From Actinernus sp. WN-2022 (taxonomy: Eukaryota; Cnidaria; Anthozoa; Actiniaria; Actinernidae), in the NCBI GenBank assembly GCA_030867875.1, contig JAOWCC010001501.1, positions 24,363,036 to 24,427,035 of the forward strand: 64,000 nucleotides of DNA, given 5' to 3'. Numbering within the stretch: the first letter of the stretch is position 1; each line of letters begins with the position of its first letter. Shown piece after piece: positions 8,953 to 64,000 of this stretch. Below the pieces are notes generated by a model. The model was not told the origin of the DNA and ran no database searches. It was given only the letters and a program-made list of their open reading frames with translations. A program made the translations under genes and the position numbers.

Positions 8953-9415
8953 GTATCACGATTCACTGATCACTTTGTTTACTTTTGAGACGCCAATATA
9001 ACATGGTATTGCGTCTCAGAATACCAGCCTCTGATTGGCTCTTGCGCGAGCCCTTGCAGTTACATGGGTTCCAGGTCAAGGTCAAAAGTCGTTTGTTCAA
9101 CAGCAAGATTTCTACAATTTCACCTTCAAAACACTGTAAATTACAAGATAAGCATCACTCAATCCTAAAGGTAAGGTTGGCATTGTAGTTTCCGTCAGAA
9201 ATCTAACACTCTTATTCGCTAAAAGTACGATTTTCATAATTTTTGAAGAGATTTCAAAACACGTCGCGAAAGTTTTCGCCACTCAAGCCGTGAAACCGTT
9301 GCCATAGATATACTAGGCGCCTTTTGAGAATTGAAATTACGATCAGAATAAGTTTGGTGCTTCATTCTCTTCTTTCTTTTATCAATTCCCGACTTAACTG
9401 TTGAATCGCGATACA

Positions 9416-9588: not shown

Positions 9589-9860
9589 ATAATATTTACA
9601 GGTCAAATTTTTTGATGGACCGGCTTTCTCTCTTTTAAAAACGGTATTATTACGATGTTTGTGCTGTTAAACTGCATCACTAAGTGCATAGTTATCTCTG
9701 TTTTACCCGGTTCGATTTGAGTTTTCAATTTCCCGAACTTAGACCAAAATATGCGAATTTGTGAACGTTATCATGGTAACGGTCCGTACGGCAAAATCCC
9801 GATCGAGCACCAGCCAATCAAAACACTCGATTTGACATTGAGAGTGGCTTGCCATGTAAT

Positions 9861-10512
9861 AATTAACAAATAAAGAAGCCTTAGCCATGTTTTATACTAT
9901 CATAAAACACGATGGGCATTTGAGAACATGAGAGAAATGTTAAAGCACAAGCCGAAGGCGCGTGCTTTCAACATTTCTAGAGTGTTCTCAAATGACCAGA
10001 GTGTTTTATGATAGTATAAAACATGGATTTAAGGCTTCTTTATCTGTTTTATAATATAGATTTACGCGCGCGATGAAAGGAAACCGCCAGTTGAAAACTA
10101 TATAACACGGCTAACCATGTTATATACTCTGATAAAACATGGCTTCTTAGCCAATCAGAGCGCGCGTACTATCGTATCTATATTATAATTAACAAATAAA
10201 GAAGCCTTAGCCATGTTTTAAACTATCATAAAACACGATGGGCATTTGAGAACATGAGAGAAATGTTAAAACACAAGCCGAAGGCGCGTGCTTTCAACAT
10301 TTCTAGAGTGTTCTCAAATGACCAGAGTGTTTTATGATAGTATAAAACATGGATTTAAGGCTTCTTTATCTGTTTTATAATATAGATTTACGCGCACGAT
10401 GAAAGGAAACCGCCAGTTGAAAACTATATAACACGGCTAACCATGTTATATACTCTGATAAAACATGGCTTCTTAGCCAATCAGAGCGCGCGTACTATCG
10501 TATCTATATTAT
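9861..10512. repeat. Two tandem copies of a 326-bp hairpin unit
   Basis: Units 9861-10186 and 10187-10512 differ at only a few bases, so the duplication is recent. Each unit contains a strong inverted repeat (ACTATCATAAAACAC mirrored by GTGTTTTATGATAGT) and a second, weaker one around CATGTTATATACTCTGATAA. The unit resembles a MITE that duplicated in place, or two copies inserted head to tail. Confidence 0.9.
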
Positions 10513-11460
10513 AAATAGTAATAACACTACCGATCTCGTACAAGTGCCTTTAAATAAATCATTGAAGTCAGATGGTTTTGCCGTCCAGTACAACCACGTG
10601 ATCAGTTACATTCCTGCAAAAGGCCTATTCAATAAAATGTATACGTACTTTACAAGTCTGGTCATTGTTTAACTGTACATATAAATGTATATACGTTAAC
10701 AGACATCAGGCACTTACTCACCAGTTTTGCTTTTTCCACTACAGATTATCTCCGCAACCAGGGGTGGGCTTTTTTCTGTTAAGTACAAGGTAAAAAAATA
10801 ATCAAAAAGTTGCCCTTTCCGGAATTAAAAAAAGGACTGTGACTGTGTGTGTGTAGAGTTAATCTGCATGAATATCGAAATTAGTAAGAGTCCCAAGATT
10901 GAGCATATTTGTGTCAATAAAAACTGATTAGTAAGCTGTCAAAAAACGCCAAAATAAGAGACGTTTGGTTTTGGGGGATGCTTGAAATAGCGTCAGTTAG
11001 GTAAGCAATATCAAGAGCTTTAAGGCGGAATTTTTATAATTGTCGCGTAACATTTCAAAAAAGCGCCAAAAACTAGCCCTATAAACAAATTTGAATTCCA
11101 CTAATTATCGCTTTGGATTAACACTCTAATTACTGTTTTATTAATCACAAACAACAAACTTTTGACTAAGAACTGTTTTAGCATGGCACGAAGTTAGTTT
11201 CTTGCTTTCCTTTGTAAATTTAGTCAGCCATTGAACCGCCGTTTAGTGTTACATATTCAGGTCTCGCCCTGACGAGAGAAGTTTGTGTTTCACATTTTCG
11301 CTTTGGATTAACACTCCAATGTAACTTTCGCCATTCTAAAAGCAACACAAATATCGTGCCATCTTTGCTCAAATCCATTTTAGCACGACACAAAACTCAC
11401 TCTTTAGTTTGGTAGTTTTTGGCGCGCAATACGCGGTTTTGTAAATATCTCTTCTTAATA
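10513..11460. other. Intergenic with diverged direct repeats
   Basis: Contains a solitary copy of the fold-back tip (TGCAAAAGGCCTATT near 10615) and a diverged direct repeat around CGCTTTGGATTAACACTC (about 11110 and 11300). Nothing coding was found. Confidence 0.5.
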
Positions 11461-18290: not shown

Positions 18291-18850
18291 TTAATAGTTG
18301 ATATTGTGTAGAATGGGACTAGGATAACAGGGAGTTCCATACACGTTTGATCCATGTGGGATGGAGAGGTACCCGTTTAACAGGTTCGGCCATGGTAACT
18401 GGTTTAACAGGTCGGACTGGTACACGGCCAGACCCGCGGGCAGTTCTGTGCGTGTCTCACAACTGCAAGGGTAGGCGAGGCAGTAGGGCTGGACGGCTGA
18501 CGTCACAGTAGCAGCTCCACGTGATAAGCAGCTGAAGTACGTTTCTCGAGGGCGGGATTCGTTATCTAGTTCTTTGACTGCTTCAAGGAACGCCTGGGAG
18601 AATCGATAACCGTGCTTCTTGTTTGGAACCTTAATGAGGATCCCCTTGCTATAAAGGTGCCTTAGCGCACGGCCCATTGTGGTGTATGTCATCTTCGGCC
18701 GGTTACTATACATGCCCCACATAAGAGCTACCGTTCGTGGGTCCTTTATCACAAACTCTCCTTCGGCTCCCTCCCAACAAATGACCCTTGCATAATGAGG
18801 GTTAGAGAGGAGTTTTAGAAGGAAGTACCATATTCGAGGCTTGAATGGGC
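18291..18850 (-). CDS. ETS-domain transcription factor, terminal exon
   Basis: The last coding exon of an ETS-family transcription factor. After an acceptor (TTCTAAAG at 18851-18852, phase 1) it encodes a near-complete ETS winged-helix domain. IWYFLLKLL forms helix 1 and the WEGAEGEFVIKDP strand region follows; next come VALMWGMYSNRPKMTY and the recognition helix MGRALRHLY, which keeps both DNA-contacting arginines; GILIKVPNKKHGYRF closes the wing. Around 105 residues with no recognised domain follow to the TAA stop at 18291. The helix 3 wording (MTYTTMGRALRHLY) is closest, from memory, to the ELF and TEL/ETV6 groups, but subfamily is uncertain. Nuclear, binds GGAA sites. Upstream exons lie at higher coordinates and were not identified; the exon at 23255-23148 is on the right strand but ends in phase 0, so it cannot join directly. 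Confidence 0.88.
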
Positions 18851-18980
18851 CTTTAGAAGTGAAAAGACAAGATAATATAAAATAAATGATTTTAATACTG
18901 AATGAATAAATCAACGAATGAATGAAAGAATCGAACGAACTATATTTACGGAGGGAGAAATGCATTAACCATAAAGTTAA

Positions 18981-19152
18981 GCCTGCTTTTCACTAGCGAC
19001 ATAAGCATCAGCACCGACGCAATAACGCATTAGTATTGCGGATCATTAGCGACGCATGTTCTGATCTCACACCCGACTAGAACAAGTACAGCTAATCACA
19101 TAAATACGGTCGGCGTATGTTGCTTGTGCTTATATCGCTAGTGAAAACCGGC
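18981..19152. repeat. MITE with inverted ends
   Basis: GCCTGCTTTTCACTAGCGAC at the left is inverted as ATATCGCTAGTGAAAACCGGC at the right. About 170 bp, non-coding. Confidence 0.7.
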
Positions 19153-20385: not shown

Positions 20386-21210
20386 CAATACAATACAATA
20401 CTGTTTATTGACAACTCCCCATAGGGGTTTTTCAGTGACAATTGATCCAATAAATAATAAATTAATTATATAATTATATATGTACAAACTATTAAAAATA
20501 TACTATATAAAATACAAAAACTAGAATAAAATCTTAAATATATATAATTGGCCTAAATAAACTCAAGACAAAAATTGTTTTAAAAGATATGATTTAAGAG
20601 TACGTTTAAAACTCAGTACAGAAGGACTTAATTTAATTTTAGGGCAAATAGCGTTCCATAAGCTGACAATACGATAATAAAAAGACCTCTGGCCAGTTGC
20701 TGTTTTACAAAGTGGTATATTCAGCTGTTGTGAATTACGGGTCACTCGACCACTGATACTACCTCTAGAAATAAATTGATTACATAAATAATTAGGTGCA
20801 AGACCAGTCATGCACTTAAACGCCATAACGGCGTCTCTTAAATATAGGTTGGATTTTACAGGGGTCCATTTAAGGCTCTTCAGAGCAGGTGTTAAGTGAT
20901 CATATTTTCTAATGTTATAAACTATACGAGCTGCAAAATTTTGAATGCCTTGCAGCTTCTTTATATTAGTGTCAGTGGTGTTTGCCCAAACTGAAGAACA
21001 GTAGTATAATTTGCTAAATACTAAAGAATTAATTATAGTAATAAGTGTATCTTTCCTAAATGCATGTTTTACACGACTTATTTGTCCCAATGCGGACATG
21101 CATAAGGAGACAGTTTTAATGGTATGTTCATTGAAGGTGAGATTTTTGTCAAAAATCACTCCGAGATCTTTTACAGTCTCTGAGGTATACTTTCCATGAG
21201 GCCAGGTTTC
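20386..21210 (-). mobile_element. 5'-truncated non-LTR retrotransposon (CR1/L2-like)
   Basis: An 825-bp minus-strand LINE insertion bounded by a perfect 20-bp target duplication that starts TTTTGGTCTGAG (20366-20385 and 21211-21230). The 3' end has AATAAACAG followed by (TATTG)n, the microsatellite tail typical of CR1/L2-like elements. It is strongly 5' truncated, so it was dead on arrival. The intact target duplication and open reading frame suggest a fairly young insertion. Confidence 0.9.
20563..21204 (-). pseudogene. C-terminal fragment of LINE reverse transcriptase ORF2
   Basis: About 213 codons, open to TAA at 20563, encode the end of a LINE ORF2 protein after the catalytic palm. Recognisable phrases are LGVIFDKNLTF, LVFSKLYYCSSVW, LQGIQNFAARIVY, YDHLTPALKSLKW and the terminal SLWNAI...FKRTLKSYLL. 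These belong to the thumb and connection region conserved in CR1/L2-type elements. The catalytic YADD motif and the endonuclease would lie 5' of the truncation and are absent. The first in-frame ATG (21159) is not a natural start. Confidence 0.88.
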
Positions 21211-21230
21211 TTTTGGTCTGAGATGGGGTA

Positions 21231-21924
21231 TCAGTACTTTTTTGTTACTTTTACCAGGTTTCCAACCTTTGATGCAGCGCTTATAATACCGATGATGATT
21301 TAGTAAATCGTAAAGCTAATGCCAACTTAATTGAAAGAAAGTAATAATAAAATAAAATAAACTCTATTAACTATGACGATAGGACAGAGAACAAGAAATC
21401 AAGAAAGTTCGAGTTCCGGCTCGTAACTCATGCCGTTGTTTTCCATCTTCTCCTTTCAAGTTACTTCTCGTAGTTCTAAGTATACTTGGTCGCTGCGCGT
21501 GGGGAATATATCTGCCTTTGGAACTGGGCAGGGGTTTTCGCTCCTGGTAATATTTGGAATATGCTAATGGTGACGTGAACAGAGAATTTATATTAGTCAT
21601 TTCATTCTCCTTGTCAATGAAATTTACGTCTGATAATCGATTTAGACAAAATATTTGGTACTGAATCAGATATGACTGACATAATTTATAACATACATGT
21701 TAAGATTATTTATCTCTTGCAGCAAGTTTTTGTATAATTAATATATTCGAAATATAAACCTTTATAACTCATAGATGCAACACTCAAATTAAGAAATATT
21801 TTACAATTCTCCTAATTACTTGATGTAGAATCGATTTTAATAATAATAAAAATTGGGCTCATATCCAAACGCTCATGCAACCTTACTGGTACTAGTTTTA
21901 AATGTCGTCCTTAGTTCAGTGCTT
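21231..21924. other. Intergenic, nothing recognised
   Basis: AT-rich DNA; a 77-codon frame at 21367-21600 (minus) is unsupported. Confidence 0.4.
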
Positions 21925-35062: not shown

Positions 35063-35332
35063 TTTGTAAATCATTATGCAGAAACTACTGAGCATGCGCA
35101 CGTACTAGTATAGTTATCTCCTAGTATAGTGTAATTGTGACTTAGTGTTAGCTTATTAAAAAAATATAAAAGACTAGCACTCAACGTTTACGGCAAAAGA
35201 GTGGCACTGAAAACACCACTCAGTTTCATTCCTATAAAAGGTAAAAAGTCAGCCTGCAACAACGGGAATATTCAAAAAACGCTGCGGAATACTTTCCACC
35301 CCTGATACTAACCATCTTCCCTTATTTCCTAC

Positions 35333-35702
35333 CTGCTATAGGAGATCCGAAACTCATGGGCACAGCAATCACTCCAAACATATTCCCTAAGGCCTGCGAC
35401 AAACGGTCATGTCCAACTATATCCGTCATAACCACAGGTAACTGGCCAACAAAACATCCATCAAACAACCCGAAAATCACTGCGTAGCATAGCACTCCTG
35501 CATAACCTGTAGAGATTGGACACAACACAGTGGCAAGTCCCATACCGAAGATAGCAGTTTGGAATAAGAGGATTCTGTTGACGCAACGGAGTTCGGAGAT
35601 TTTACCGAATATGATTTTGCTGGCAGTTGAACTGATCGCTAGGATGCCAAGCAGCCAGGAGCCGCGAGATGATGGGATACCTTTGTCTTCTGCAAACTTG
35701 AC
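35333..35702 (-). CDS. SLC16-type transporter, exon 3 (TM8-TM11)
   Basis: Phase 0 acceptor (TTATGACAG), phase 1 donor (GCAG|GTAGGA). It encodes residues 254-376: TM8 (LLGILAISSTASKIIFG), TM9, TM10 (VLCYAVIFGLFDGCFVGQLPV) and most of TM11 (LSQALGNMFGVIAVPMSFG). In TM8 the aspartate and arginine that classical proton-coupled MCTs use for monocarboxylate and proton coupling appear to be replaced by Ser and Lys, judging by alignment from memory to MCT1. Confidence 0.92.
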
Positions 35703-36157
35703 CTGTCATAAGGAAGATTATCCTATAAATATATTTCAGCCAATCAGAGCTCATAATTTCTATGAAATACAGGGCGGTATTTCATGGCTAGATGACAATT
35801 CAATAAAAATGTAAGAAATTTCGTGCTATTTCTTTTTCAACCTACCATATAATATAATACACGCCGTCAGCACAATCTACATTTGCCATTCGCACGTAGG
35901 AATTGGGGACAACAGAAGTTTACCTACCATGCACTATTAGACTGGAACTCTTTAGACTCTGAAGTTATACAATCAACTACATTATCAATTTTTAAATCTT
36001 ACTGGCACATAACTTAATTTCATAATAATCCTTGCTCTATTTCTATTTTATTTCAACCATTTATCTTTTCTGTTTTCCATATATTAGTGAAATATATATT
36101 TTTAATACAGGACCTCCCTGAAAATCACAAATTGTGAGTGGAGCTTTCCTGTCAAAA

Positions 36158-36188
<31 letters not shown>

Positions 36189-36841
36189 ACATAATTAGTC
36201 TCGAGACACGGCCTCCACTAAACGACCATTGAATTGGCTTCAAAGAAAATTTCACTTCAAGTTTTTCGTAATGGCTTCAAATCTGCCATCTATTTCCGAA
36301 GATAAAAATATTTACCTTGCCATTTGTTATTTATAGGATAATGTGCGAAAATTTTACTCGAAATACAATTTCATTTGAAATATTCACCTACAGGTATTCC
36401 ATAGAAAACCATGAAACAACCAGTAAATATTTCGCCAAACCTGACATGCACCACAGGTAACCCAAATCAAACTTGCCCAAAAAATAAACACCAAAAATAG
36501 AGGATTATACTATCGGTAGCAATAAACCCTAAACACCCTAAACCCTGGGTTAGGGTTAGGTACTGTGTGGTTGGTGGGAATATGATATCACCATAGGAAT
36601 CCTACAACAAGTAATCATTTTGTTATGTAATTCGTAGTAGGTCTGATAATTAATATTATTCTTGTAATTAGAACCATTAACAAGACAGTGGAATGCTAGC
36701 TCTTAGACTGAGTACTCAAACTCTCCCTCCTCCTCCCCCCAGCACTGTACATGATGAAATACAACCTCGAATTGAAAACTAGATTAGCATGACTATACAA
36801 ATGTAAGTACTATGTCTATTGCATTAATCTCTTTAACTTAC
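35703..36841. other. SLC16 gene intron 2
   Basis: GTAAGT donor and TATGACAG acceptor on the minus strand. It holds a LINE 3' fragment (separate entry) and a short telomere-like run (GGTTAGGGTTAGG near 36545). Confidence 0.9.
35860..36187 (+). mobile_element. LINE 3' fragment with (TTA)n tail
   Basis: From about 35886 a plus-strand frame reads the last part of a LINE ORF2 (RNWGQQKFTYHALLDWNSL, then SIFKSYW) and stops near 36014. An untranslated stretch and (TTA)n tail end at 36187. 5' truncated, antisense to the host gene. Confidence 0.7.
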
Positions 36842-37404
36842 CAAATGCATGTAGGGTACTGGATAGCAGAGCTGAAAAACCGCCACCGCTACAACCAACA
36901 CAATGTATGGCTTACACAGCCACACTGAAGGCACATCCTTCATCGTTTTCCTCTGTCTTTGAGTGACACATGGTGTATGCGTCTGTACTGGTCGATACAA
37001 TAAGGCAGACACCCAAAGCAGCATAGCAACACAAGACAGTATCCTCATAGTGTTCTGCCATTTAACACTTGATAATAAATAATTTATAAAAGGAGCTGCC
37101 AAAAGCCCCCCTACCCCTGACCCTGAAGAAGCAATTCCATTAGCCAATGCAAAACGTCTGTTAAAATATTGTCCTAGCACCACTATAGAAGGGATAAAGG
37201 AGAAGCTTGAGCCCACTCCCCATAGTAATCCATAAGTCACATACATCTTGGAGGGCTCTTGGACAAATGACGTGAGGAATAAGCCAAGAACAGCTAGCAG
37301 TACACCTGTGAAGGCAACAGCACGACAGCCATAGTGATCACAGAGGCGGCTGGCTATAGGGCCACAGAGAAAATTAAGACTTCCAGCCATTGAGCCAATC
37401 CAAG
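36842..37404 (-). CDS. SLC16-type transporter, exon 2 (TM2-TM7)
   Basis: The acceptor TTTATACAG joins exon 1 in phase 1 to restore the AWIGSM motif; the donor TTTG|GTAAGT is in phase 0. It encodes residues 66-253: TM2, the DHYGCR loop after it, TM3, TM4, the family signature GQYFNRRFALANGIA before TM5, TM6, the large intracellular loop and TM7 (CKPYIVLVVAVAVFQLCYP). Confidence 0.93.
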
Positions 37405-39129
37405 CTGTATAAAAACAAACAAATAACAATATTTAAAGCAAAACTAAACTACCAACTATCAGCAACTATTGAGATCTGATTAGCTTCTCAATAATGCTGA
37501 TGATCTGACTGATCAGTTGAATTTTTAGTCAGGACTGTAAATTTGAACATTTCAATATTAATTTTTGTACAGACAAAAATCAAGTAGGAAATTGCTCATT
37601 TTTAACATTTTCAATCATGGTTTCCTCAATAAAGTCAATGGCTAAGTTGGTGAGAATGTCGCTTGGTTACACGTTTATGTTGAGGTTGAGGAACCTGTAC
37701 TGTAAGCCACTAATGAAGGGGCATGGAGACAATCTCCCTGTCTAATATACATAAGCCCCACTCCCCACCCAATAGCTCTCCCTTCACATCATTGGTAACC
37801 TGTTCATAAATTATACAGACTTCAGAACATTTTCTTCAAGGACTTTTTAAAGACAAATTCCACACTTTTCACAGACTTGTTTTCCACAAGATCACACATC
37901 AAATGAACTCAAAGTTCTATCCATATTAGACCAAAATTAATGTTACACCCTTTCTTTGACTTGTTTGCATGATGCCGTTCTAACAATTAATATGAGGCTG
38001 TTTTTCTGTCTTCTCAAACATCCAAGGAGGTTTCAACAAAATTTATGGAGTTTTGGTAAAAATTCAAGGTCTTTTTAAGGAGACAACCTTAATCTTATTC
38101 TGTAAAAATGCAAGGACTTTTCGAGGACAGACTGGCATAAATTCAAGGAATTTTCAAGACCTGTGCAAAACATGCTCTATATATCATGAAGTTTGATATT
38201 CCTGGCTTAATTGTTGTGCAGGTTGTTGCAATTATAATATTAAACTCGTGGATTTATAAATATTTAAAATGTACTTGGCCATGCAGCTTTACATACAGAA
38301 TTACAAATTATCGTTAGCAGTAAATATATTATATAATAAAATGAATAATAACACATAAAACAAAAAAAATTATATCAATATTATCTAAAGTAGATTTTGT
38401 TGTAAAATTCATTAATTATTAGAGATTAACTGGTACATAAAGTATTTTCATTTTTTATTTTTTTTTCCAGTTCAGAATCCATTGAAATAAATACTGTTGT
38501 GCACTCTCAGATAGGCTCATGCATGTCCATCTTTTCTCATTGGCTCAGTACTGAACCCAGTGCAAATTACACTTTTCGTAAAGTATTTCAAAGTCAAAGT
38601 TTTTGATGAGATTCTGACATAAAATAAAATTATTTAACCTGCATGGCTACCACTTTATGAAGACCTTGTATTTCTGCCACATATTTGATATCTGAAAGCC
38701 TGGAAAAAAAGGGAACCTGCAGAAAACTACCATTTTCAAACAAAGACCACACAATGGACAGGCCTGCAAAATGCTAATAATTGTGCATGCATGAATTTCA
38801 CCTAGGAAATCACGCTCATACAATGTACGCATCATTTTGGTTGAATGTTCACTAAAAATGTGGAATTCATAGCATTATAGTATTATTGTTACAGAAAAAT
38901 AATGAGCTTCAATTTTTAAGCCCTTCAAATTTAATTGGCTTGATGACTATAAACTAATAAAACTCTCAACTCTTGCAATTCTCTCCTTAACCCCCAGTCT
39001 TTTTTATGATGTGTTGAGTTTCTGATTTTTTTCTGAACAGAAACCATTTAGGACTGCTCCCGCAATTTCTACCGCTACCTGGACATACGCACATTTTGCA
39101 GACCTGTCCAAACAATCAATACTGACAAA

Positions 39130-41439: not shown

Positions 41440-41997
41440 AGTTACCTGACTTGTTCCTTGACTCTTGAGACTTGAGTAAATTAAGCTTGTTTTGTTTTTC
41501 TGCAAGAGGTACAAAATAAATTCATAAATTTGAAGATCTCGGAAACAAAGCACTGAATCCTCAGAGAGCTGTTACATCTGGGACGACAAATGTATAGCGT
41601 ACGAGCTGTGAAAATGTACGCCTGTTGTATATTTTTATAGAGCCTTTAGAAGCTGTGACCTTCTAAAATGGCCGCTTGAGAAAACTGTCAAAAGACAAGC
41701 GACGCTTACCTCATCTATATTGGGTTCTGCGATAACAGGAAAACCGATTAATTTGGTGTTAGAGGCCGAGCCTCGAGTATGACTACATATATATTTTAAT
41801 GATACATATAACTTACAGTACCTTCAATTTTTTATCACAGTGATGTCATATTATTTTTCTTCGAATGAACGAGAATCGAGATACTTCGCGGAGTGGGGGA
41901 CTGGACTGTGCTGTGTAACCACAGGTAGCCCAAGTAAGCGATTACAAGTCGATACTAAAAAAACTAAAAAAAGGGGGAAGAGTCTTGGTAAAGTGCC
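41440..41997. other. Intergenic
   Basis: Contains a donor-like AGGTAAGC on the minus strand near 41709, the best candidate for the end of an untranslated exon of the SLC16 gene. Otherwise nothing recognised. Confidence 0.35.
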
Positions 41998-42394
41998 GAG
42001 TCAGGGTTCAGGGTGCGAGTCAGCGAGTCAGGGTGCGAGTCAGCGAGTCAGGGTGCGAGTCAGCGAGTCAGGGTGCGAGTCAGCGAGTCAGGGTGCGAGT
42101 CAGCGAGTCAGGGTGCGAGTCAGCGAGTCAGGGTGCGAGTCAGCGAGTCAGGGTGCGAGTCAGCGAGTCAGGGTGCGAGTCAGCGAGTCAGGGTGCGAGT
42201 CAGCGAGTCAGGGTGCGAGTCAGGGTGCGAGTCAGCGAGTCAGGGTGCGAGTCAGCGAGTCAGGGTGCGAGTCAGCGAGTCAGGGTGCGTGCGAGTCAGC
42301 GAGTCAGGGTGCGAGTCAGCGAGTCAGGGTGCGAGTCAGCGAGTCAGGGTGCGAGTCAGGGTGCGAGTCAGGGTGCGAGTCAGGGTGCGAGTCA
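41998..42394. repeat. 20-bp minisatellite (GAGTCAGCGAGTCAGGGTGC)n
   Basis: Nearly perfect copies of a 20-bp unit made of two related halves (GAGTCAGC and GAGTCAGGGTGC); towards the 3' end it degrades to a shorter 12-bp unit. With few stop codons and a unit not divisible by three, three frames stay open and encode periodic CESASQGASQ or SQRVRVRVSES peptides. These are not credible genes. Confidence 0.97.
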
Positions 42395-58836: not shown

Positions 58837-58970
58837 GCAGTAGTAGTGAAAAGCCGATTCTAGCTCACTTTTTGAAATATGTTGCTGTTTCTGGCTCATT
58901 TCTTCGAAATAAACCAAAAAACAGCAACATATTTCAAAAAGTTATCCAGAATCTGCTTTTCACTGCTACT
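58837..58970. repeat. Large hairpin
   Basis: AGTAGTGAAAAGC, then ACTTTTTGAAATATGTTGCT and its complement, then GCTTTTCACTGCTACT: stepwise inverted arms of about 60 bp. Confidence 0.85.
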
Positions 58971-59075: not shown

Positions 59076-59214
59076 TAATACATATTCCAAAAAACGAGTC
59101 AGAATCGGCCACGTTTTTAGGATTTTTTTTACTTTAATATAATATAATATAAAAATAAAATAAATAAAATAAAAAAAAATAAAAAAAATAATATAAATAA
59201 ATAAATAAATAAAT

Positions 59215-59400
59215 AAAGTATAGTATAGTATAATATAAAAGTAGTCGGTTTTTCATTTGTGAACTATACTATAATATAAAAACTGAAAATCGGCTATATT
59301 CTCAATTTCAATTACCATTTTAGAAAGTATTTCATTTATTATAAAAATAAAATAAATAAATAAATAAAGTATAGTATAGTATAATATAAAAGTAGTCAGT
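59215..59400. repeat. Subterminal direct repeats AAAGTATAGTATAGTATAAT
   Basis: The word AAAGTATAGTATAGTATAAT followed by ATAAAAGTAGTC occurs at 59215 and 59366, each followed by an inverted AACTATACTATAA. The spacing of about 151 bp directly upstream of the cassette suggests subterminal or regulatory repeats. Confidence 0.7.
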
Positions 59401-59428
59401 TGTAAACTATACTATAAAATAAAATAGT

Positions 59429-59581
59429 ATGAAAGTAACGAATCCTTATGATAGCACAGGCTGGAAACGAATTGGTATCCTAGGCGTAGGAATGCAACAA
59501 TGTTGCTTGTACAAGCCTGAAGAACGCATAGAAACGTGTGATTTGAAGCATGGTTGGAAATGTGGATTACGCATGGGGTAA
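59429..59581 (+). CDS. Small 50-residue ORF of the polymerase cassette
   Basis: ATG 59429 to TAA 59579-59581, 50 codons. Contains four cysteines (CC at 25-26, then C37 and C45) and KHGWKC near the end, suggesting a small metal-binding or disulfide-bonded protein. It lies 95 bp upstream of the coiled-coil gene on the same strand. Function unknown; its position within the cassette and lack of simple sequence make it worth annotating. Confidence 0.4.
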   Translation: MKVTNPYDSTGWKRIGILGVGMQQCCLYKPEERIETCDLKHGWKCGLRMG

Positions 59582-59676
59582 ATGTGGTTTTATAGAGTGG
59601 TGCTATAGTAAGAATAGAATAGCATTAATTAGTATTGGAGAGATATAAGAAAACAACGTTATAGCGTACTATTGGT

Positions 59677-61383
59677 ATGGAAGGTCACAATCGTAAGGAT
59701 CTGGAAGATTACAATTATAAGGAGCTGAGAAAATTAGAAAAGCTATATAAGGAGAAGATGGAAGAGTTATTGGCTCGATTTAAGTCTGGTAGCAAGCATG
59801 TGCGCGGATTAAGGGATGCGGGAGAAGATGAATCATCCAAATTAATCTTGTCCGCAATAAGGATTATGAAGCAGCAAAAAGACGAATATATGAAAGTTAA
59901 GAAAAGACATCTGAAGATATTGGATTTACTAGATAATTATGACGACACACAAGAGAGCGAAAGCGAAAGCGAAAGTGATTTTACTATTGGTATGGAAGAT
60001 CTGAAAGATTACGATTATAAGGAGCTGGAAGAATTAGAAAAGCAATATGAGGAGAAGAATAAAAGGATATTGGATCAATTAAAGGATGTTCATAGGCAAT
60101 TGGATGAAGAAGCTGAAGAATATGAAGAAGATGAACCATCCAAAATCATCTTATCCTTATCGAAGAAGCGCAAAGAGCTAGAAAATCTACTTATGAGACT
60201 TGGAAAAAGACAAATGGAGATATCGAATTTCCTAGATGATCATGAAGATGCACAAGATAGAGAACTCGAAAGTGAAAGCGAAAGCGAAATTGAAAGTGAC
60301 ATTGATAGTGACATCGCGGAAGAAATTGAAGACATAAATGAAAGCATAACTGAAAGTATGAATCATAGTAAGATTAGTGACATAAAAAAAAGTATGAAAG
60401 GAATCCGCACCGAAAATGAGGACAAGATCAAAAACGAAATCGAAAGTGAAAGATTAAAAAAGTCATTGGTACTACAAAGAAAGAAGCTGGGTGAACTACG
60501 TAGCAAATACATTCGAGTTAATCTAAGCATAGATAAGGCATATGATTTACATTCGAGGACCGGTGTAATGAATAACAAATTATCTGAAACCTTAAGATCT
60601 GCACTCAGCCATCGAGAACGTCTAAGGGAAGAACTTAATTGGCTATTGCAAAACTACGAAGTGGGTGCATTGAAACTAGCAGCTTATAAAGGAGGTGATA
60701 TAAGAAAGATAATGGCAGTAACCATAGGCCTACTTGATGAGAGTTTAAAGGACACGCATAAGAAGTATGTCATTAATAAGGCACTCAGTGAAGAATTCGA
60801 TATTCCTAGGCAACGTGATAGTACTCATTTTGAAATGCTAGTGCGAAGTGTGGTTGGTGAGTTGAAATCGGAACTCAGTTACGACGTATACGAATACAAA
60901 AAGAGAGTAAACTATCTAAAGGAGTATATAGAACAGAACCCACCAAAGAATCCATTAGAGGGGTTGGATGGGGGAATGCCGGCTATAGAATTGAAAACGT
61001 TAGATAAACCACTAATCGAGAATCACAAACAGACATTACCTAGTATTAATACCATAATTGAGAATCACAAACAGACATTACCTAGTATTAATACTATAGT
61101 TGAAAACAAAAAAGAACAAGAGAAATCCACAGATGACGTAAGTGTGCCAGAAGGAGATGAGCATAAAAGATTGTCCACGATATATAGGGAATTGGAATCA
61201 ATGGTTAAAGTAATTGCTGAGAAGCTAGAATCGACGAATAATGCATATGATAAGATGCCGAAGCACTCCATCCAGGACAAGCAAGAGCAGATCAAACAGC
61301 TAGATCAAATCAAACAAATAAAACAAGGGCATGTGGGTCAATTACAATTAATCAAACAGCTCGAGCAAGAAATTAAAACATGA
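59677..61383 (+). CDS. 568-residue coiled-coil protein of the polymerase cassette
   Basis: ATG 59677 to TGA 61381-61383; intronless. No known family recognised. Residues 1-95 and 106-200 are a diverged tandem duplication: DYNYKELRKLEK against DYDYKELEELEK, SSKLILS against PSKIILS, each ending in an ESESES acidic tract. The duplicated DNA starts 10 bp before the first ATG. A charged coiled coil (about 220-330), a mixed helical region (about 330-440) and a Gln/Lys-rich C-terminus with a 14-residue direct repeat (IENHKQTLPSINTI) follow. No signal peptide or transmembrane segment. Stop is 44 bp ahead of the polymerase ATG, so the two are probably expressed together. It could be a structural, scaffold or terminal protein of the element; this is inference. 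Confidence 0.85.
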   Translation: MEGHNRKDLEDYNYKELRKLEKLYKEKMEELLARFKSGSKHVRGLRDAGEDESSKLILSAIRIMKQQKDEYMKVKKRHLKILDLLDNYDDTQESESESESDFTIGMEDLKDYDYKELEELEKQYEEKNKRILDQLKDVHRQLDEEAEEYEEDEPSKIILSLSKKRKELENLLMRLGKRQMEISNFLDDHEDAQDRELESESESEIESDIDSDIAEEIEDINESITESMNHSKISDIKKSMKGIRTENEDKIKNEIESERLKKSLVLQRKKLGELRSKYIRVNLSIDKAYDLHSRTGVMNNKLSETLRSALSHRERLREELNWLLQNYEVGALKLAAYKGGDIRKIMAVTIGLLDESLKDTHKKYVINKALSEEFDIPRQRDSTHFEMLVRSVVGELKSELSYDVYEYKKRVNYLKEYIEQNPPKNPLEGLDGGMPAIELKTLDKPLIENHKQTLPSINTIIENHKQTLPSINTIVENKKEQEKSTDDVSVPEGDEHKRLSTIYRELESMVKVIAEKLESTNNAYDKMPKHSIQDKQEQIKQLDQIKQIKQGHVGQLQLIKQLEQEIKT

Positions 61384-61427
61384 TCTAGAAGGTACTTAAA
61401 GCCACAACGTATAATAGTATTATTGAT

Positions 61428-64000
61428 ATGAGTGGTAATATTATGAACCGAGAAATACCAGAAATCGATGTGCCGATTTTGAAACCAGTTGTTAATAAGC
61501 CAAAAGCTAAGATGCCACAGAATATTGTCAATTCAATAAATAAGAAAATAAGTAAATTCACCAATGAGATTCTATTAGATGTTCCTAAGGCTATTAAGAA
61601 GAAAATCAATAAACGTGTCGAAAAATTGAAGAAGGAAATAAATAAGATAAATGATGATAAGCCACAACCATACAAGACAGCAATAAAAGGGTTCTTGAAA
61701 ACGTTTAGAATAGAAGGACAAGAGATTGATTATAAGATGTTCCTTGATAATATTAAACAAAGAGTTGTCAATTTAATAGATCAACAAGATAAACCAATTA
61801 AAATGAAATATATATTTACATGTGAGTTTACAAAAGAAGATCTGAATACAGGACTACCCATTACTAATATTGGGAATTTCCATTCTAGAATGGAAACAAT
61901 TACAGAAGCAATAAATGTATCTGAGATATTTGATAACATGGTGGAAGAAATGCTTGAAAAAATAGAAACATTTCAAAATGAAGGATCTGGATGGAAGTTC
62001 AGTAAGGTATCCTACTTTGATATACACATTGATAAGTACATACCTATTGGAGCGAAATCATATATACCTCTTCCTAAGAATCTAGCTATGAAGAAAGCAA
62101 TTATAAATATGGAAAACATGGACAACAAATGTTTCAAATGGTGTATGACTGAGGCGGTATATCCAAGAAATAAAAATAACAGTCGCATTACAAAGGAACT
62201 GAGAAAGAACTCTGAAAAGTTCGATTGGAGGGATATCGAATTTCCAGTTTCACTAAGACAAATAGATAATTTCGAAAAGAATAACGTACAACATTCAATC
62301 AATGTTTTTGGATATGACAACAATGAAGTATATCCTCTAAGAATTAGTAAATGCAATAGAGACCAAGCTATTAATTTATTAATGATATCAACTGATGAGA
62401 CGAATCATTATTGTTGGATTAAGAATCTTAGTAGGCTATTGTCATCGCAAGTTAATAAAAATGGTCATGAAAGGTATTTTTGCAATAGGTGCTTGAACTC
62501 ATTCAAATCGGAGGAATCACTAAACAATCATATAGAATATTGTGCCAATCATGATGCCGTTAAGATAGAGCTACCAAAAAAAGGAACTATACTAACATTC
62601 AAGAATTATAATAGATCCATGAGAGTTCCATTTGTAATTTATGCCGATTTCGAATGCTTTACAGAGAGCATATCAACTTGCAGTCCAAATGATAGTGAGA
62701 GTTATACAAAACAATATCAGAAGCATAAACCATCGGGGTTCTGTTATTTGATAAAATGCTTTGACGATAACCTGTTGGAACCAAAGCTAGTTACATATAC
62801 AGCTAAGTCATCTGATGATGATGTTGCACAGACATTCATAAGTTATCTTGAGAATTCTATAAAAGAAATCTATAATAAATTTAAATTCACTAAGAAGGTA
62901 GATATGACAGAAGAAGATGAGATCGTTTATAAGAAAGCTACTAGTTGCCATATCTGTGGTAAAGAGTTGGTAATTGACAAGGTATTAGATCATTGTCATC
63001 TAACAGGTAAGTATAGAGGTGCTGCACACAATGCCTGCAATATCAACAATAAGATTCCAAAGTTCTTCCCTATCGTATTCCATAATCTATCTGGATATGA
63101 TGCACATCTTTTCATTAAGAACCTAGGTGTAACAGAAGGTGAGATAGATTGTATACCAAATACAGATGAGAAGTATATTTCATTTACGAAGAAGATAATC
63201 GTAGACAGCTTTATGAAAGATGGAAAGAATAAAAATATTACGCGAGATATCAGATTCATTGACAGCTTTAAATTTATGCAAATGAGTCTAGCAAGTCTTG
63301 TGAGTAATCTATCTAGTCATAAGAATATGGAAAGATTCTATGAAGGAAAGCAGTTAGACCTATTGTTGAGGAAAGGAGTTTATCCTTATGACTATATGGA
63401 TAGTTTTGATAAGTTGGCAGATACGAGTCTCCCACCAATAGGAGCCTTCTACTCGAAGCTGAATGATATATCAATCACAGAAAAAGATTATGAACATGCT
63501 AATACTGTTTGGGAGAACTTCAATATGAAATCTATGAAAGACTATCACGACACATATTTAAAATCTGATGTTATCTTATTAGCAGATGTATTTGAGAACT
63601 TTAGAGATGTATGTTTGAAGAACTATAATCTAGACCCAGCATGGTACTACACATCGCCAGGATTATCGTGGGATGCTTGTTTGAAAGTGACTAATATTGG
63701 ATTACAATTATTACATGATATTGATATGATAAATATGGTTGAGAAAGGTATTCGAGGTGGGATATCAATGATCTCGACAAGATATAGTAAAGCTAATAAT
63801 ATGTATATGAAGAATTACAATTGGTTAGAGCCATCGAAGTTTATCCAATACCTAGATGCAAATAATTTATATGGATGGGCTATGAGTAGGAAATTACCAA
63901 CACGTGATTTTAAATGGATGAATAAGACAGAGTTGAAGAAGTGGTACAAATATCCTTCTATTTTGGAAGTAGATTTAGAGTATCCAATAGGACTTCACAA
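61428..64000 (+). CDS. Protein-primed family B DNA polymerase, N-terminal 857 codons (partial)
   Basis: An open frame from ATG 61428 (ATG 61443 is an alternative; a TAG at 61386 closes it upstream) runs off the right edge. It copies element DNA, presumably using a terminal protein as primer. In order: a lysine-rich N-terminal region of about 350 residues without a named domain; a CCHC-type finger (C352, C355, H368, C372); Exo I with D407 and E409 (YADFECF); an endonuclease VII-like zinc insertion (CHICG at 507, DHCHLTGKYRG, NACN at 538); Exo II (HNLSGYDAHLF near 552-562); Exo III (Y710 to D714, YLKSDVILLADVFE); and Pol A (YLDANNLYGWAM, D810). Pol B and Pol C (DTD) lie beyond 64000. All 3'-5' exonuclease residues that can be seen are intact, so the enzyme could be active. 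Confidence 0.92.
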   Translation, partial: MSGNIMNREIPEIDVPILKPVVNKPKAKMPQNIVNSINKKISKFTNEILLDVPKAIKKKINKRVEKLKKEINKINDDKPQPYKTAIKGFLKTFRIEGQEIDYKMFLDNIKQRVVNLIDQQDKPIKMKYIFTCEFTKEDLNTGLPITNIGNFHSRMETITEAINVSEIFDNMVEEMLEKIETFQNEGSGWKFSKVSYFDIHIDKYIPIGAKSYIPLPKNLAMKKAIINMENMDNKCFKWCMTEAVYPRNKNNSRITKELRKNSEKFDWRDIEFPVSLRQIDNFEKNNVQHSINVFGYDNNEVYPLRISKCNRDQAINLLMISTDETNHYCWIKNLSRLLSSQVNKNGHERYFCNRCLNSFKSEESLNNHIEYCANHDAVKIELPKKGTILTFKNYNRSMRVPFVIYADFECFTESISTCSPNDSESYTKQYQKHKPSGFCYLIKCFDDNLLEPKLVTYTAKSSDDDVAQTFISYLENSIKEIYNKFKFTKKVDMTEEDEIVYKKATSCHICGKELVIDKVLDHCHLTGKYRGAAHNACNINNKIPKFFPIVFHNLSGYDAHLFIKNLGVTEGEIDCIPNTDEKYISFTKKIIVDSFMKDGKNKNITRDIRFIDSFKFMQMSLASLVSNLSSHKNMERFYEGKQLDLLLRKGVYPYDYMDSFDKLADTSLPPIGAFYSKLNDISITEKDYEHANTVWENFNMKSMKDYHDTYLKSDVILLADVFENFRDVCLKNYNLDPAWYYTSPGLSWDACLKVTNIGLQLLHDIDMINMVEKGIRGGISMISTRYSKANNMYMKNYNWLEPSKFIQYLDANNLYGWAMSRKLPTRDFKWMNKTELKKWYKYPSILEVDLEYPIGLH

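Follow-up and report, generated by a model that had tools for sequence, protein, structure and literature searches.

Does the right end of this 64-kb stretch of contig JAOWCC010001501.1 (the window) hold a protein-primed replicon that is still intact in an animal genome, and of what kind is it? The last ~4.6 kb of the window carry two uninterrupted frames on the + strand, ORF1 and a family B DNA polymerase gene that remains open at the window edge (Table 1). We consider it probable that these frames are the left end of an element of the Polinton/adintovirus type, integrated in a genome that is likely anthozoan. The visible polymerase gene is uninterrupted and is predicted to yield primer, protease and polymerase in one chain.

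Two uninterrupted frames

No stretch of the 64 kb is free of stops for longer than the polymerase and ORF1 frames, which measure 870 and 572 codons from stop to stop; the third longest has 250. Random bases of the same composition would be expected to place ~74 and ~45 stops in them, respectively, and the computed probability of finding none is ~3e-34 and ~3e-21. A first-pass annotation of the window had reported an uninterrupted family B frame of at least 857 codons, and this was borne out from 61428 to the window end. It had also placed two ORFs before the polymerase: the one of 568 aa stood, whereas the one of 50 aa is chance-like. Its "intronless cassette" holds in the sense of uninterrupted frames and means no more than that; the intronless ORFs of a Polinton are represented in the visible part by these two frames, as read from the DNA sequence. 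The purine fraction of the + strand was 0.56–0.65 in the last five 1-kb blocks and 0.506 ± 0.027 in the 59 before them. Three of the five, those furthest left, exceeded every host block; the final two (0.57 and 0.56) did not.

We estimate from the stop-producing fractions that neutral substitution of ~1.3% would have a 95% probability of interrupting at least one of these frames. The visible part is therefore either young or maintained by selection, a conclusion that does not extend to the right half. Among vertebrate elements of the Polinton/Maverick kind 96% are defective (PMC8097293), which agrees with the earlier remark that such elements are usually decayed. However, 134 intact copies in 17 vertebrate species are already in print (PMC8097293), and an intact frame alone is therefore unsurprising.

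Table 1. Features at the right end of the window (window coordinates; residue numbers refer to the polymerase)
Feature	Position	Strand	Remarks
52-nt repeat	59199-59250 and 59350-59401		Two copies, 151 nt apart; candidate left terminus
50-codon ORF	59429-59581	+	Too short, not distinguishable from chance
ORF1	59677-61383	+	568 aa, 39% charged, ~100-aa stretch duplicated internally
PolB frame	61428-64000	+	First 857 codons, protein-primed-type family B DNA polymerase, open at right window edge
Predicted terminal-protein (priming) domain	61698-62048	+	Residues 91-207, from models
S187, predicted linking (priming) serine	61986-61988	+	In a Gly-Ser-Gly loop flanked by helix 164-184 and strand 190-203
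Predicted vOTU-like cysteine protease domain	62061-62432	+	Limits approximate
vOTU residues C235 and H327	62130-62132 and 62406-62408	+	Cys and His in 56/56 rows with letters
CCHC-type zinc-finger-like motif	62481-62543	+	C352, C355, H368, C372 in 56/56 rows with letters
Exonuclease motif I (D407, E409)	62634-62666	+	Alignment
Endonuclease VII (HNH-type) domain	62901-63044	+	Between exonuclease motifs I and II
Exonuclease motif II (N553, D558)	63078-63113	+	Alignment
Exonuclease motif III (Y710, D714)	63543-63593	+	Alignment
Polymerase motif A (YLDANNLYGWAM)	63849-63884	+	DANNLYG from residue 810

Domains and motifs of the polymerase

The evidence supports a family B, protein-primed-type polymerase with polinton-type N-terminal domains, the palm fold being predicted on a relative. 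All six exonuclease residues listed in Table 1 are present, in agreement with the first-pass annotation. The motifs carry their usual PolB names. Motifs B and C are present in aligned relatives; comparison with four relatives (P0003, P0039, P0072 and P0088) leads us to expect ~340–360 more codons. Several relatives begin with a Rho_N-like segment, which is missing in the window polymerase and P0088, and likewise in P0072 (which may be cut) and some others.

Polinton polymerases are described with the order terminal protein (TP), vOTU, exonuclease (EXO) and palm (PMC11071308), and the same TP-vOTU-EXO-PALM order is found here. The TP fold was predicted on the window's own protein, the palm fold on the relative P0072, and vOTU from residues and topology. 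The window protein was modelled from 14 close rows of the alignment and a full-length relative from 60 rows, because the window model was too weak outside residues 91–204. The predicted linking serine, located with the position rule of PMC11071308, is Ser in 55/55 rows with a letter there; the row from relative locus L009 has a gap. In the relative's model a helix starts at the vOTU Cys and the fourth strand that follows contains the His, matching the description in PMC11071308. The fold searches listed no OTU structures, their lists being filled by polymerases or little-finger domains, which neither shows nor excludes the fold. A PDB sequence search with the window polymerase gave no match; with the relative P0001 it gave RNA-binding protein 7 alone, at E 0.02–0.03, which we took as chance.

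These predictions suggest how the element may replicate. S187 of the terminal protein would carry the first nucleotide and prime copying at the element ends, and the vOTU domain, through C235 and H327, would release the terminal protein by cleavage once initiation has taken place. The predicted phi29-like exonuclease and polymerase could then copy the linear element by strand displacement, and an integrase, presumably encoded to the right of the window, would integrate the copy. Branched replication intermediates may be nicked or resolved by the endonuclease VII domain.

An endonuclease VII domain within the exonuclease

This domain was the only Pfam match above cut-off in the window polymerase, with no polymerase model among the matches (PF02945, E 2.4e-6, 27.8 bits against a cut-off of 23.6); PHROG 423 matched at E 1.6e-8. 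Exonuclease motifs I and II are 138–155 residues apart in 53/53 scorable rows, so no row is without the domain. Its presumed catalytic D, H and N, which we take to correspond to residues of T4 endonuclease VII, are kept in 51/56, 56/56 and 55/56 rows with letters, and the loci compared go down to 33% identity to the window. D521 and H534 (window numbering) are changed in L009. The literature passages found on endonuclease VII concern phage T4.

Polinton polymerases also carry homing-endonuclease inserts at different positions, which are treated as intein invasions (PMC11071308). A built-in domain fits the alignment better than an intein-type insert of that sort, with the caveat that most rows were found through their similarity to a polymerase that already carries the domain. 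We suggest only tentatively that a resolvase of endonuclease VII type is permanent in the proofreading domain of this polymerase lineage rather than a transient homing insert, such that one chain would prime, cleave itself free, proofread, copy and resolve branched DNA.

A further polymerase relative, at 9305–13246 of L002, has changes at D521, H524 and N538 (window numbering), as though that lineage could do without the nuclease.

Relatives and their loci

The search for polymerase homologues returned 1754 proteins at E<=1e-3 among the 7996 candidates sharing most words. The best 120 of the 1754 were 55–62% identical over 91–100% of the visible polymerase, and those named among these 120 come from the sea anemones Exaiptasia and Nematostella (one Nematostella protein is 56% identical). 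In a quick tree of 56 rows, made with no bootstrap, the window polymerase grouped with P0072 and P0088 (SH-aLRT 89, unstarred), all three being flagged, among others, as long branches. The trio lay inside a 47-row group that includes two named anemone proteins (SH-aLRT 98, starred). For many of the listed relatives the longest contig measures 0.1–17 Mb, which suggests integration. Three of them, P0007, P0084 and P0100, are probably on one contig (longest contig 605,170 bases for each).

Thirteen distinct relative loci were fetched (L001–L013) and the ORFs of nine were read. Four of the nine have an integrase-like gene next to the polymerase: L001 and L005 match Pfam rve above cut-off, and L006 and L008 match IS3/IS481-type models below cut-off. 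L001 also encodes an A32-type ATPase and a weak capsid candidate, and L002 and L005 a PLA2-like domain. Little apart from the polymerase is present in L004 and L007; for L009 the neighbouring genes were inspected by eye. Viral-contig scans picked out the relatives L001 and L002 only, the first scan none.

L003 (6569 bp) is recorded as part of a Gastranaerophilales metagenome-assembled genome. Its polymerase, split between frames and 48% identical to that of the window, adjoins a Bro-N gene and another whose VRR-NUC-like match is below cut-off. This may be DNA of a eukaryotic virus or host that was misbinned in a bacterial genome, and the same may hold for L004–L013.

The putative left end and ORF1

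AGTATAGTATAGTATA lies inside each copy of the 52-nt repeat, at 59217 and 59368; a 16-mer with at most one mismatch was expected 0.00 times in shuffles. The AGTATAG repeat pair at 59.2–59.4 kb is an AGT-type sequence near the putative left end, similar to the (AGT)2 end-motif that vertebrate Mavericks carry (PMC8097293). The repeat is a candidate left terminus of a Maverick-type element, unproven because the right end is outside the window, so that no inverted match or target-site duplication is visible. We searched for other element genes left of 59 kb by tblastn (E<=0.01), the queries being five proteins and every stop-to-stop frame of 90 aa or more in L001–L013. The polymerase region was the only match, a weak negative given such distant queries. 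Inverted repeats in locus L014 were short A/T-rich ones and nothing more, and a scan for bacterial promoters and terminators was near chance.

Just left of the element, at 58839–58970, is a hairpin-like inverted repeat (52-nt arms, 90% complementary, 28 nt between), perhaps a small palindromic transposon.

ORF1 had nothing above cut-off in Pfam, PHROG and NCBIfam, and no relative at E<=1e-3 among 7989 candidates sharing most words. Residues 265–440 alone had no relative at E<=1. It is thus an orphan, and probably serves an accessory function, lying between the putative terminus and the polymerase gene.

The host flank

That the window comes from an animal genome is very likely, as the first-pass annotation had assumed: it holds a piece of an Ets-domain gene at 18.3–19.0 kb (18294–18989, − strand, Pfam Ets E 2.2e-26), Ets being an animal gene family, and the named proteins closest to the polymerase come from sea anemones.

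Exon-like frames of an MFS transporter lie at 35325–37432 on the − strand (MFS_1, E 5.3e-20 and 3.3e-7, the latter below cut-off). A 250-codon frame at 20566–21315 (− strand) had no Pfam match at E<=0.01; we take it to resemble the end of a LINE reverse transcriptase. Two head-to-tail copies of 326 bp at 9859–10514 are 99% alike and represent either a very recent duplication or an assembly artefact. At 41997–42383 there is a 20-nt satellite of CGAGTCAG units (~19 copies), and the block containing it shows a strong GC skew.

Alternative explanations

Several points weigh against a Polinton/adintovirus-type element. The window stops inside the polymerase, and no capsid, integrase, ATPase or protease gene of the element is visible. 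Among the relatives, no integrase was recognised in five of the nine loci read (L002–L004, L007 and L009), and those linked to an integrase are 35–43% identical over the best segment. The capsid candidate of L001 matched Capsid_N at E 0.028, below cut-off, that of L002 had no Pfam match, and neither gave a useful match against PDB. Pfam DNA_pol_B_2 matched neither the window polymerase nor six relatives. The window's own model is mostly of low confidence (mean pLDDT 52, good only at ~91–204) and returns weak Foldseek rows; two residues and a predicted topology are the basis of the vOTU call; and the top BFVD row for the relative's model is densovirus-named rather than polinton.

With only ~4.6 kb in view, the Polinton might be truncated or partly decayed, its polymerase end surviving or newly inserted but its right side broken or missing, and incapable of autonomous movement. 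We hold this to be possible though doubtful; it is compatible with a Polinton/adintovirus-type element, and the two stop-free frames (1704 and 2571 nt), in a visible part that is young or selected, speak against it. The densovirus names, which also head BFVD rows 3 and 4, together with bidensovirus or bidnavirus-like rows 8 and 10, would suit an integrated bidnavirus-like polymerase, that is, a single-stranded DNA virus with a captured polinton polymerase in place of a capsid-bearing Polinton. However, adintovirus polymerases are rows 2 and 5, and in bidnavirids the vOTU active-site residues are reported to be replaced and the domain inactivated (PMC11071308), whereas the Cys and His are kept here throughout the alignment; we regard a bidnavirus-like origin as improbable.

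Cytoplasmic linear plasmids share the TP-vOTU-EXO-PALM order (PMC11071308), but some relatives of the window polymerase adjoin integrase-like and ATPase genes and the long contigs suggest integration, which makes a linear-plasmid-type replicon without capsid genes very improbable. The PolB of mitochondrial linear plasmids is described without a vOTU domain (PMC11071308). Against such a plasmid speak the predicted phi29-type fold, the integrase-linked relatives, and the retained vOTU-type Cys and His with their strand order, for which there was no direct OTU fold match. A long intact frame beside an orphan gene, with no other element gene visible, could also be a domesticated host polymerase gene under selection for cellular use. 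This we find hardly credible, as many different copies are listed, three of them probably on one contig, as in a mobile family, and the first 3 kb differ from the flank in purine content.

Comparison with known elements

The Polinton/adintovirus-type element is most likely a Polinton, of a type that corals and sea anemones were already known to carry, and a sound but largely ordinary find, because both Maverick groups are reported from Nematostella (PMC8097293), a polinton/adintovirus of the coral Stylophora is named in PMC11071308, and intact vertebrate copies are published. The literature covered also included PMC4642659, PMC6505742, PMC8775771 and PMC8363768.

It resembles the cnidarian Polinton/Maverick elements (Nematostella, Hydra) in its polymerase kinship with a Nematostella protein that may belong to a described Polinton, in a polymerase near the left end that reads inward, and in an AGT-type repeat near the putative end. 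It differs in ORF1, for which no relative was found, and its capsid, ATPase, protease, integrase and right terminus would be outside the view. Adintoviruses are defined by a PolB with an N-terminal OTU-like domain, a Hexon recognisable by BLASTp and a chromodomain integrase (PMC11071296). The window polymerase keeps the OTU-like residues, any Hexon and integrase would be beyond view, and adintovirus polymerases are among the top fold matches. Bidnavirus polymerases belong to the same fold family. In phi29 the terminal protein is separate, unrelated and helical (PMC11071308), whereas here a little-finger-like domain is predicted to be fused in front.

The Stylophora polinton has its terminal protein as a separate gene (PMC11071308). 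Our results add the young-looking polymerase end of a virus-like transposon, likely anthozoan, whose terminal protein, by prediction, has remained fused. Should the right half prove intact, the element would offer a candidate system in which to ask whether animal Polintons can still produce virions and self-priming replicases. Two concrete biochemical tests are suggested by the serine predicted to prime and by the endonuclease VII domain with its fixed place.
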